Shown here piece by piece: positions 23,454 through 28,080 of a stretch of 42,215 nt of DNA (the stretch's first letter is position 1; each line of letters opens with the position of its first letter). Under the pieces are notes generated by a model, which did no database searches, was not told the origin of the DNA, and worked only from the letters and a program-made list of their open reading frames with translations. Source of the DNA: a virus; IMG/VR virus record IMGVR_UViG_3300020457_000023, positions 1-42,215 of that record. One strand, written 5' to 3'. A program made the translations under genes and the position numbers.

Positions 23454-23485
23454 AAACCTTGATTGCTATACATGTATTATGACAT

Positions 23486-23511
23486 AAAAAAAGCACCCTG
23501 TAAAGGGTGCT
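23486..23511 (-). terminator. Intrinsic terminator upstream of the helicase
   Basis: The minus strand has AGCACCCT TTAC AGGGTGCT, a perfect 8-bp stem with a 4-nt loop, followed by seven T. It ends the transcript of the 43-aa gene. Confidence 0.88.
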
Positions 23512-23532
23512 GTGCCACTTCAAAGACTGTCT
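23511..23532. repeat. Dispersed stop-codon hairpin, copy 8 (weak)
   Basis: On the minus strand GACAGTCTTTGAAGTGGCAC begins inside the stop of the 43-aa gene and leads directly into the terminator. The word order fits the family, but the stem is poor. Confidence 0.4.
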
Positions 23533-23662
23533 AGAACAGGACTGCCCATACCCAAACAACAACAAGAGTATAAATCAGGAAGTTACGCTGTTCCTTGACA
23601 GACTCACTCTTTTGAACGGCATCAAATAATTCTGCCTTAGTGTTCTTGAGTGATAGTTTCAT
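23531..23662 (-). CDS. Small tail-anchored membrane protein, 43 aa
   Basis: ATG at 23662, TAG at 23531. A charged helix (SLKNTKAELFDAVQKSESV) is followed by a C-terminal transmembrane segment at about residues 28-43 (LIYTLVVVWVWAVLF), a tail-anchored topology. It is 26 nt downstream of the structured RNA at 23689-23890, so its expression could be set by that leader. A terminator closes the unit. Similar 40-50 aa proteins occur in marine phages and plasmids as far as I recall; role unknown. Confidence 0.68.
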   Translation of the reverse strand: MKLSLKNTKAELFDAVQKSESVKEQRNFLIYTLVVVWVWAVLF

Positions 23663-23688: not shown

Positions 23689-23890
23689 AATGTGGTTAAG
23701 AGAGTGGGGCAATGATCTGGGTTTCACCCATGTTGCCCAAATTTACCCTATGGGAATCGCTTACACCTGTACCCCTACTGAACTAGCAAGTAATCATATA
23801 AGGAATCTTAGTAGGATAACCCCACAATCCAAAATGATTGAACCCTTGCTATCGTTCGGGCATAGGAACCACATATCCCTTAACCACATT
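23689..23890 (-). ncRNA. Candidate structured RNA closed by a 12-bp terminal stem
   Basis: No convincing gene in these 202 nt. AATGTGGTTAAG and CTTAACCACATT (23689-23700 and 23879-23890) form a perfect 12-bp closing stem. Read on the minus strand, inner helices are GGGCAA/TTGCCC at 23707-23738 enclosing TGGGT-GAA-ACCCA, CCTACT/AGTAGG, CAATC/GATTG and TACA/TGTA. An extended -10 (TGCTATAAT) lies at 23894-23902, so transcription would start inside the closing stem. It is either a free RNA of about 200 nt or the leader of the 43-aa gene. It does not match tRNA, tmRNA, glutamine riboswitch or hammerhead signatures that I know. A transposon-like inverted-repeat element is the alternative. Confidence 0.5.
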
Positions 23891-25287: not shown

Positions 25288-25310
25288 GTGGACAGTTATT
25301 TAACTGACCT
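25288..25310. repeat. Dispersed stop-codon hairpin, copy 10
   Basis: CAGTTA TT TAACTG, a perfect 6-bp stem extended by GTGGA. It spans the stop of the halogenase gene at 25296. Confidence 0.55.
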
Positions 25311-26696
25311 TATATCAAATGTTAGTTCACCATGCACTTCTTTTAAATCTATATGAGGAACTATTAGTGGGAACTTATCAGCATAATCAGCACCAAAACC
25401 ATAAGCACACTCTACAAAATCTTTATAGTTACCTGCAAAATTGGGTAGGTCATGTCCAATATATTCATGTATTCTACCATAGATAAAATCTTGAGTTAAT
25501 TTAGGATCATCTGCAATAATATTATAAAAGTCATCAGTAAAGTTTTGATCTTCATTTAATATAGTAAAATTCATAATATCTTTATTGTTTAATAAATCCC
25601 TAGAATCTTTACTAATAGTTCTCCAGAATGGTGAATCATACTTAGAACCAAAACTATACATCCATGCTGCGTTTTTATACCAGTCATCAACAACTGTTGA
25701 ATAATACCAGTCATTTAAATGATTAACTAGATTTTGATTATGGGGATCTTCATCAAGTACATAATCACATATTTTATCTGACATGTAATCATAATACATG
25801 CCTGCCAAAGATTCTAATGGATCAATAAATCCAATAGCATTACCATTGCGAAGATATCTACCACTGTGATGCACCATATACTTTGATAATCTAGGTGTCC
25901 ATGTAAATTTCTTGTACGGATAACCTAGTGACTCAGGAATTATAGTTCTAAAATCTTTTAGTGCCTCCTCTTCAGTTGTAATATTATCATTATAAGTATA
26001 TCCAAATGTTCTCCTTGACTGTAATGGTATTCCAAACATCCACCCATTTTGATGAGCATATGTTATAGTACAACCCCAATCTGCTGGTTCGGGTAGTCTT
26101 AATGCTAATACAGTATTTACAGATACGAACTTAGAATCAAAGTAATAATCATCATGTAATAATGACTTACCACCAGTGCAATCAATAACAAAATCAAATC
26201 GTTTTTGATATAACTCAGATTTAGATGATGATAGATAAACACCATCGGGAGTAAACTTTATATCTGTTATATTCTCATCCCTTAGTGATAAGTTAGGTGT
26301 AAATTTTGGTAGATATTCTAAAAAGAATTCACTAAAATATCTTGTATCAAAATGCATACCCACTGAGTGTGGATCTAACCATCTAACAAAATTGCGTTTT
26401 TTACCCCATCCAATAAACTTATTACCAAACTTAATTGTGGCATCAAAATACCTCTTAAAATGAGGAGCAACCATGGTTGTGGTATTTGATATTTGTGATG
26501 GTAGATCAGGTGTAGTTGACTCACCTATACCAAATATACTGATATCTGAGTCATATATCCATGTCAATTCTGTCTCAACCTGACGATTTTGCCAGTTTTT
26601 GCTGTTAGGTTCAACCTCTATTGCTCTCTCATCAATTAATCTTAATAGGCAATTGATACCAACAACGCCTGCACCCAATACTGCTATTTTTCTCAT
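25296..26696 (-). CDS. Flavin-dependent (tryptophan-type) halogenase
   Basis: 466 aa (PrnA is 538). FAD-binding GxGxxG at 8-13 (LGAGVVG), the family GEST-x-P segment at 58-63, K89 in DATIKFG corresponding to the catalytic lysine (PrnA Lys79), GWMFGIPL at 218-225 (the GWxWxIP signature, here with Phe for the second Trp), and GFIDPLES at 289-296 with E295 matching PrnA Glu346. Both catalytic residues are therefore present. Such enzymes use FADH2, O2 and chloride or bromide; a flavin reductase would come from the host. The substrate is unknown. Starts 1 nt after the stop of the paralogue. Confidence 0.88.
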   Translation of the reverse strand: MRKIAVLGAGVVGINCLLRLIDERAIEVEPNSKNWQNRQVETELTWIYDSDISIFGIGESTTPDLPSQISNTTTMVAPHFKRYFDATIKFGNKFIGWGKKRNFVRWLDPHSVGMHFDTRYFSEFFLEYLPKFTPNLSLRDENITDIKFTPDGVYLSSSKSELYQKRFDFVIDCTGGKSLLHDDYYFDSKFVSVNTVLALRLPEPADWGCTITYAHQNGWMFGIPLQSRRTFGYTYNDNITTEEEALKDFRTIIPESLGYPYKKFTWTPRLSKYMVHHSGRYLRNGNAIGFIDPLESLAGMYYDYMSDKICDYVLDEDPHNQNLVNHLNDWYYSTVVDDWYKNAAWMYSFGSKYDSPFWRTISKDSRDLLNNKDIMNFTILNEDQNFTDDFYNIIADDPKLTQDFIYGRIHEYIGHDLPNFAGNYKDFVECAYGFGADYADKFPLIVPHIDLKEVHGELTFDIRSVK

Positions 26697-26697
26697 A

Positions 26698-28080
26698 TTA
26701 ATATGTTTTATATCCTATAGTTCCAAATTTTTCTGGTGGATAGCAATAGTCTAACGCACTAAAACGATCTGCATAAGGAGCACCTAATCCAGTTGCTAAC
26801 TCAGAGAATAATGTACGATCATTCATTATAACAAATGGCACGACTTTATGTCTACCGCTTACATCGTCCTCCTCATCACTGTGTATAAGTGCTTTGTAAT
26901 CTTCATCAGTCCATTTATCATTTAACACCTCATCTAACCAAGGTTTTCCTGGAAAGAATGATGGATGTAAATATCTCTCTTGAGATAGATATTCTCTCGC
27001 TTGTGCTTTAATATTTTTCCAAAACTTTGTATTAAATCTTGAACCATACATGTACATGAATGACAACATTGCTTGATAATCCATTGCCAATAGTTCATAG
27101 TATGTTTCTTCAATATGATTTACAATTTTTTGTCTTCCCTTCTCTTTTTCATTAATTAAATGAGTATACATTCCAATTGAATCACACATAATATGAACAC
27201 ATTCATTATGAGTTGCAGTTAATGGCATAATATCAATTAATGCAGCACCATTTCTAATATATCTACCAGTATGAGGACAAACACAATAATTAGATACTCT
27301 AGGCACCCATGTTCTCTTCTTAAACTTCCATGTACTCACATCATCATCAGGAAATGCATCCTGAATATCTTTCATAATTTCTTCATCAGTTGTATCTTTA
27401 CGATGCACTGAGTCATACATGTATATCCATAACTGTCTACTCTTGAGAGGAATACCAGTCATGTGACCATATTTACCTGCATACTCAATACAATAATCCC
27501 AATGACCCGCTTCTGGTTTCTCTAGAATAATAGCAGTATTTACTGGTCTAAGACTGGGATCACCAAATGCATGAGGATCAAAGAGTGGATTTTTTTCTGT
27601 ACAATCAATAACAAAATCATAGAACTCACCATTGATCTTTGCACCACTCTCATTGATAACAACAGAGTCAATCTGTTGTTCTATAATCTTTACACCATTA
27701 CCAAAACACTGTCCACCATCTTTTAACATTTCATTTCTAAACATTTCAATGTCAATAAACTCTGCAGTTTGTGAATGAAATGATAATTGAAAATTCTTAT
27801 TACCCTGACCCCATCCAATATATTTGTACCCATGACAATCTCTAGCATCAGCATATTTTTCCATCCACCTTTTAGTTAAATTTGTAACTACCTGTAGATC
27901 ATCAAAAAATGCAGGATTTGTACCTGACATCATTTCATTGTAAACTTTGTCAGGATCATGAATCAGCACATATTCATCATCTTTGAACATGCTGTGCAAT
28001 CTATACTTTGATTGTTGTAAAGATGCTAACTGCACAAATCCTGCAGCACTAGCACCAACAACGGCAATTCTTCTACTCAT
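26698..28080 (-). CDS. Halogenase-like flavoprotein lacking catalytic residues
   Basis: 460 aa, clearly related to the following gene. It keeps the N-terminal nucleotide fold (VVGASAAG, middle Gly replaced by Ser11), GHMTGIPL at 205-212 and the R-x-N-G-A-A-L region. At the two key sites it differs: the DATIKFG segment is replaced by DARDCHGYK with no catalytic Lys, and DPLES is replaced by MPLTA with Thr for the catalytic Glu. It should bind flavin poorly or not halogenate. It may be a partner subunit, a different oxidase, or a decaying duplicate. ATGA overlap with the preceding oxygenase. Confidence 0.8.
   Translation of the reverse strand: MSRRIAVVGASAAGFVQLASLQQSKYRLHSMFKDDEYVLIHDPDKVYNEMMSGTNPAFFDDLQVVTNLTKRWMEKYADARDCHGYKYIGWGQGNKNFQLSFHSQTAEFIDIEMFRNEMLKDGGQCFGNGVKIIEQQIDSVVINESGAKINGEFYDFVIDCTEKNPLFDPHAFGDPSLRPVNTAIILEKPEAGHWDYCIEYAGKYGHMTGIPLKSRQLWIYMYDSVHRKDTTDEEIMKDIQDAFPDDDVSTWKFKKRTWVPRVSNYCVCPHTGRYIRNGAALIDIMPLTATHNECVHIMCDSIGMYTHLINEKEKGRQKIVNHIEETYYELLAMDYQAMLSFMYMYGSRFNTKFWKNIKAQAREYLSQERYLHPSFFPGKPWLDEVLNDKWTDEDYKALIHSDEEDDVSGRHKVVPFVIMNDRTLFSELATGLGAPYADRFSALDYCYPPEKFGTIGYKTY

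Follow-up and report, generated by a model that had tools for sequence, protein, structure and literature searches.

Positions 23,689 to 23,890 of a viral DNA record of 42,215 nucleotides (the whole stretch is called the window below) are bounded by complementary arms. This raises two questions: whether the region encodes a structured RNA and what such an RNA would do for the phage. The original prediction, made from the sequence alone, was a single folded RNA domain of 202 nt on the minus strand, transcribed from its own promoter and unlike any named cyanophage RNA.

A Structured RNA on the Minus Strand

The perfect 12-bp closing arms (23689-23700 and 23879-23890) were confirmed, and this stem, P1, was extended to 15 bp, including one G-U pair. 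The nested helices predicted inside it were present in their proposed places. Folding of the region gave -62.0 kcal/mol (z -4.1) for the plus strand and -68.9 kcal/mol (z -3.7) for the minus strand, with 0 of 200 shuffles as low in either case. The 12-bp stem alone is not significant: the window contains four perfect inverted repeats of this kind, and under a first-order Markov null perfect 12-bp repeats at comparable spacing average 1.1 and never number more than 4. The other three in the window are located wholly or largely within open reading frames. Chance is ruled out because of the homologues and the covariation presented below, not because of this stem. Similarly, the counts of G-U versus A-C (18 vs. 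9) favor the minus strand weakly, and the strand was assigned on the basis of the promoter, the gene direction, and the spacing. Taken with the homologues and their covariation, which support the structure, we regard it as virtually certain that the element is a genuine structured RNA, read from the strand originally predicted.

The folded RNA therefore stands, but not the single domain: the 202 nt are made up of a conserved core of about 110 nt, which we call core A, and an exchangeable insert of 82 nt. The core consists of helices P1-P6 with two three-way junctions and carries the insert as a cassette in the P4 loop. Along the RNA strand, the order is P1, P2, P3, P4 with its variable loop, CAGGTGTAAGCGATTCC, P3', GTAAATTT, P5 enclosing P6 (with GGTGAAACC), P2', and P1'. 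No second element of this kind was found in the other intergenic stretches of the window. Mapped features are listed in Table 1.

Table 1. Features of the core A locus and its predicted transcription unit, in the order of the minus strand (positions of the window).
Feature	Positions	Strand	Remarks
P1, 5' strand	23876..23890	-	Pairs with 23703-23689; transcript start expected in its first bases
P2, 5' strand	23870..23872	-	Pairs with 23704-23706; GTGG/CCAC becomes ACGG/CCGT or GCGG/CCGC in relatives
P3, 5' strand, CCTATG	23861..23866	-	Pairs across the insert with CATAGG, 23752-23747; strongest covariation
P4, 5' strand, CCC	23858..23860	-	Pairs with GGGG, 23775-23772; base of the variable slot; nearly always paired, almost invariant
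Exchangeable 82-nt insert in the P4 slot	23776..23857	-	Variable stretch here in relatives, with differing inserts where flanks are 98-99% identical; model R1 aligns 82 nt
Module M2, GCAAGGGTTCAATCATTTTGGAT ... ATTCCTTATATGATTACTTGC	23786..23849	-	Relatives carry it in 12 variable slots
Module M3, TGTGGGGTTATCCTACTAAGA, nested at the M2 tip	23806..23826	-	Also in other scaffolds; P-SSM7 has it without a core
Conserved strand (T/A)CAGGTGTAAGCGATTCC between P4 and P3	23753..23771	-	AGGTGTAAGCGATTCC invariant in alignment A2
P3, 3' strand	23747..23752	-	Covariation
Conserved joining strand GTAAATTT	23739..23746	-	Alignment A2
P5, GGGC/GCCC, around P6 with conserved GGTGAAACC	23707..23738	-	P5 and P6 pairs covary
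P1, 3' strand	23689..23703	-	Sequence and covariation
43-aa ORF, MKLSLKNTKAELF...	23531..23662	-	Gene headed by the proposed leader; no Pfam or PHROG match
Intrinsic terminator, AGCACCCTTTACAGGGTGCT-TTTTTTT	23485..23511	-	Behind the 43-aa ORF; closes the transcription unit

Distribution of the Core A Family

A blastn search against phage records matched the 3' half of the element in the Prochlorococcus phages P-SSM2 and P-SSM5, as well as in four single-cell marine virus genomes (AG-345 series), always in unannotated or gene-free DNA. Scanning viral contigs with CAGGTGTAAGCGATTCC gave at least 120 stretches; the invariance of this strand is thus partly selected, the helices not having been a selection criterion. 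After later scans, about 150 loci were known from marine viral contigs and from the isolates P-SSM2 and P-SSM5, a number that includes short contigs and in which near-identical strains may be counted more than once. Exact duplicates were removed for a later locus scan and for the counts of domain C, of -10 motifs, and of spacers given below.

Model R1, built from 29 loci with the window excluded, matched the window at 23886-23694 on the minus strand (108.7 bits, E 8e-26), and the element has the P1-P6 helices, the covarying P3, and the invariant strands by which the family is defined. One R1 copy each was found in 14 of the 17 long records, with none in P-SSM7; in P-SSM2 the only match is at 56697-56819, and contig L025 carries two core A copies. 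The strict core pattern had no occurrence in 84,980 GTDB genomes (one per species, contigs >3 kb); two relaxed-pattern matches had surroundings unlike the core and were read as chance. The plasmids searched did not contain core A either.

No description of this RNA was found in the open-access literature. Core A is a new, unnamed structured RNA family; it covaries strongly, is common in viruses of the Prochlorococcus type, and has gone unannotated in the cultured phage P-SSM2.

Covariation of the Core Helices

Compensatory changes in homologues, the test that the original prediction had set, were clearly found and are decisive for the structure. The P3 hexamer changes on both strands together across more than 10 sequence versions, over inserts of 18-234 nt. 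These versions include CCTATG/CATAGG, CTACTG/CAGTAG, CCATAG/CTATGG, CTCTAG/CTAGAG, GCTATG/CATAGC, CTGCTG/CAGCAG, and CCTACG/CGTAGG, among others, and nearly all form six standard pairs. Because the 5' strand of P3 in this list was picked with pairing in mind, the RNAalifold analysis of a MAFFT alignment, the controlled pair counts, and the coupling scan are the more independent evidence. RNAalifold recovered identical helices. In the alignment, 95.7% of the cells were paired, compared with at most 61% for slid structures; 115 cells were changed on both sides vs. 33.7 in shuffles, and the covariation score was 0.369 vs. 0.153, a value reached by 0 of 500 shuffles. Changes on both sides were seen in relatives at six of eight P1 pairs. 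Finally, among 112 relatives, the most strongly coupled columns able to pair belong mostly to P1, P2, P3, P5, and P6, and the unpaired couplings of that scan lie mostly beside those helices or in the P5-P6 joint.

Exchangeable Cassettes in the P4 Slot

Stretches in the P4 slot range from 18 to 234 nt, the P4 bases being included in this count. The smallest are plain hairpins, such as CCCC-GATTAAGTTT-GGGG, and the larger ones consist of folded modules, found repeatedly on varying outer stems. The insert in the window is M2 with M3 at its tip. M3 can also fill the slot directly (L030), and it recurs in other scaffolds (L131, L132, and L134) and, in the absence of the core, in P-SSM7. M5 may occupy the slot, belong to another scaffold, or be inserted into the M3 loop (L046 and L163). 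Some pairs of loci (L118/L173, L069/L128, and L139/L309) have unrelated inserts or a nested insertion between flanks that are 95-99% identical. As judged from these sequences, the P4 cassettes are exchanged between loci. Near-identical backbones with different cassettes amount to a natural experiment in modular RNA design, in which the roles of cassette and core could be told apart.

The modular, nested build was not described in the literature searched, and we know of no described counterpart for a nested exchange of RNA cassettes. Marine T4-like cyanophages may possess a combinatorial RNA system, in which at least a dozen folded modules, their loops conserved, nest recursively in slots common to several scaffolds, are lined up in leader arrays, and exchanged between phages, some of them (domain C) pairing between molecules; we consider this wider picture possible and still rather speculative.

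Promoter and Predicted Transcription Unit

The extended -10 element of the original prediction, TGCTATAAT, was confirmed on the minus strand at 23902-23894, where it contains the stop codon of an upstream 63-aa ORF. It lies just before P1, a position that would place the start point within the closing stem, as had been proposed. The 43-aa ORF and the terminator were found where they had been predicted, behind the domain. The unit in the window thus reads promoter, core A with insert, a 26-nt spacer, the 43-aa ORF beginning directly after it, and the terminator, with no terminator between the RNA domain and the 43-aa gene. A promoter-like site for the helicase gene (23504-23476) is located at the terminator.

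A GTGTCACA / CTGGCACA / ACTGTCAC box was noted at 23936-23929 of the window and upstream of many core loci; it tends to sit after the upstream gene, often ahead of a terminator and the -10, and is possibly a shared upstream signal. In addition, a short ORF (MTQVTLKNTKAQIFDAL...) resembling the 43-aa protein of the window was seen in P-SSM2, in an annotated gap of 958 nt (68264-69221), where it has no core A leader. Elsewhere in the window, a gene for a tryptophan halogenase-like protein (Pfam PF04820) lies at 25296-26696, next to an ORF at 26698-28080; the P-SSM2 annotation includes a halogenase gene of the same type.

Similar promoter-like motifs precede many of the relatives. The TAYWWT hexamer is most frequent 24-28 nt ahead of the conserved GGTT, which puts its end a few bases before P1. 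For 141 core loci, TAYWWT was found within 60 nt in 78 and TAAA[GC]TG in 44 (the counts can overlap), while 49 had neither motif at the expected positions, many of these lying behind another RNA domain. At many loci, including L018, L020, and L021, a GGGGGGACGCATAAAGTGTCCTTAAGGTG-type motif is found upstream of the core in place of TATAAT and may be another promoter type.

Module Arrays and Downstream Genes

The modules occur as arrays, such as A-M11-M5-C and B-M5-C. An ORF starts within 150 nt after 277 of 401 arrays, and these ORFs fall into 59 protein families; the ORF finder was mechanical, and some of the 277 are perhaps not true genes. The largest downstream family (60 members) follows C, B, A, M6, or M5, and a single gene family can have different leaders (A, C, B-M5-C, A-M11-C, and others). 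Where domain A is last, the median distance from its end to the ORF is 22.5 nt (48 loci); from the end of the domain C tail it is 18 nt (99 loci). The domain C spacers are 58% T and 2% G and contain a Shine-Dalgarno-like word in 2 of 99 cases, and the domain A spacers are 39% T with such a word in 7 of 48, compared with 28 of 101 for P-SSM2 genes at large.

The absence of a terminator after the domain in the window, the start codon 26 nt further on, and the similarly close placement of relatives before dozens of gene families lead us to favor a cis leader over a free-standing RNA, and core A is in our judgment probably such a leader.

Domain C, present at L002, L003, L086, L195, and other loci and absent from the window, is a compact GAGGAGATGGATGTGCCTC...AACTAACATCC structure with a possible pseudoknot. 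Of 116 loci, 114 have a self-complementary hexamer directly behind it, which takes seven forms (GCTAGC, CACGTG, CTATAG, CCTAGG, CCATGG, GCATGC, and TCTAGA), and the other two have dyads with one extra central base. One reading of this palindromic tail is that it would allow RNA dimer formation. A target-site reading of the palindrome was also considered and rejected, as the same hexamer is not clearly enriched nearby. In P-SSM2, scaffold B, M5, and domain C stand in series before the next gene in a gene-free, unannotated stretch (55815-56116).

Proposed Function and Alternatives

Starting from the structure, the family, the exchange of cassettes, and the placement directly before start codons, all established as far as sequence comparison goes, we propose that core A is an interchangeable, 5'-terminal mRNA leader acting in cis, which shields the 5' end and insulates the start region. 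Transcription would begin inside P1, leaving the 5' end tied up in the closing stem, and we infer that RNA polymerase reads on through the domain, the unpaired 26-nt spacer, and the 43-aa gene up to the terminator. We hypothesize that the folded domain would keep the host nucleases RNase E and RNase J off the 5' end and the start region free of pairing; ribosomes would load on a U-rich spacer, usually one without a Shine-Dalgarno sequence. The P4 slot would tolerate whole folded cassettes, and recombination would swap them. We put this proposal forward tentatively as a whole, as one that could well prove right. Core A may also explain how messages of these phages stay intact and are translated during the degradation of host RNA. 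Context for the nuclease shield comes from Prochlorococcus MED4, in which RNase E increases on infection by P-SSP7 and the transcripts of that phage are reported to escape it by means of antisense RNA (PMC9692554).

Several observations weigh against it. The RNase E context was described for a T7-like phage outside the core A phage group. A single core A in most long records (14/17) is odd for a general stabilizer, unless domains of other types contribute to the task. U-richness of the spacer is evident for domain C and weaker for domain A. Moreover, the invariant unpaired strands AGGTGTAAGCGATTCC, GTAAATTT, and GGTGAAACC go beyond what simple blocking of nucleases or insulation would require, which hints that a protein or ligand binds there.

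Such long invariant unpaired stretches would be expected of a ligand- or protein-sensing leader of the riboswitch type, as proposed for manA and wcaG, in which they would form the pocket and binding would alter expression of the next gene. The promoter-proximal position in the 5' leader, like that of manA just behind TATAAT in P-SSM2, agrees with this. However, the 59 downstream families do not form a common class of gene, the window has no terminator between domain and gene, there is mostly no Shine-Dalgarno sequence to mask, and the P4-slot modules are freely swapped, all of which makes a sensor somewhat unlikely.

The core could also be cut from the leader and work in trans, as a noncoding RNA or decoy that binds a host factor and whose cassettes are under arms-race selection. 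A single copy of the core per long record, varying next genes, and cassettes exchanged between near-identical backbones would all suit such a role. It is unlikely nonetheless, given the lack of a terminator after the domain in the window, the tight spacing to start codons in relatives, and the fact that no processing signal was identified.

Antitermination of the put type, in which the nascent leader would bind RNA polymerase and allow it to continue beyond the terminator (23511-23485) into the helicase gene, is more doubtful still. The element does start at a promoter and precede a terminator, but the helicase gene has its own promoter-like site there, and no polymerase-binding motif is known for core A. 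Finally, a MITE-like mobile DNA element whose inverted ends mimic an RNA stem, as terminal inverted repeats, differing genome positions, and modules recurring at several sites might suggest, is very unlikely: covariation of the internal helices largely refutes it, the ends at P1 are not conserved but vary and covary among loci, inspection of the flanks in the window by eye showed no obvious target duplication, exchange occurs within the P4 slot and not of the whole element, and there is usually one copy per record.

Comparison with Known RNAs

The original view that no named RNA fits was borne out by Rfam, which gave no relevant match at the gathering score (window and 113 kb of relatives) or at a loose E-value (element and 45 kb of relatives). 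The suggested likeness to tmRNA found no support: neither ARAGORN (0 genes) nor Rfam recognized a tRNA-like acceptor domain with a tag reading frame. That to 6S RNA was not upheld either: there was no Rfam match, and the consensus is branched, whereas 6S RNA is a long rod with a large central bulge. The put RNA of phage HK022 is structured and stands at the 5' end of phage transcripts, as proposed for core A; it differs in size and host. The GOLLD, ROOL, and OLE RNAs are much larger than core A, and the GOLLD and ROOL models of Rfam did not match the element or its relatives. These ornate structured RNAs have been reported as homo-oligomers (PMC12286853), and the self-complementary tail of domain C would fit oligomer formation of that kind.

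The nearest known system is manA (RF01745), a cyanophage RNA that is about 195 nt long and occurs in 5' leaders (Weinberg et al. 2010, PMC2864571). In P-SSM2, the same genome as core A, it lies at 142837-143034, just after TATAAT. What the two share is the position in a 5' leader behind a promoter, not descent. The two do not match each other in sequence or by model, and their P-SSM2 loci are separate, the manA model matching only 142837-143034 and R1 only its own locus, and the manA covariance model found no match in the window. manA also occurs in P-SSM7 and in two long contigs, at places other than those of core A. A link to sugar, nucleotide, and photosynthesis genes has been proposed for manA; no such link was seen for core A. 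The wcaG RNA (RF01761) is, like core A, a structured cyanophage leader RNA; its model had no match in the window, and 14 records, the majority with core A, yielded none above the cut-off. Phage S-CREM1 has been reported to carry wcaG, manA, and glnA elements (PMC9964418). Core A is a separate family of the same broad kind as manA and wcaG, a structured leader RNA of cyanophages.
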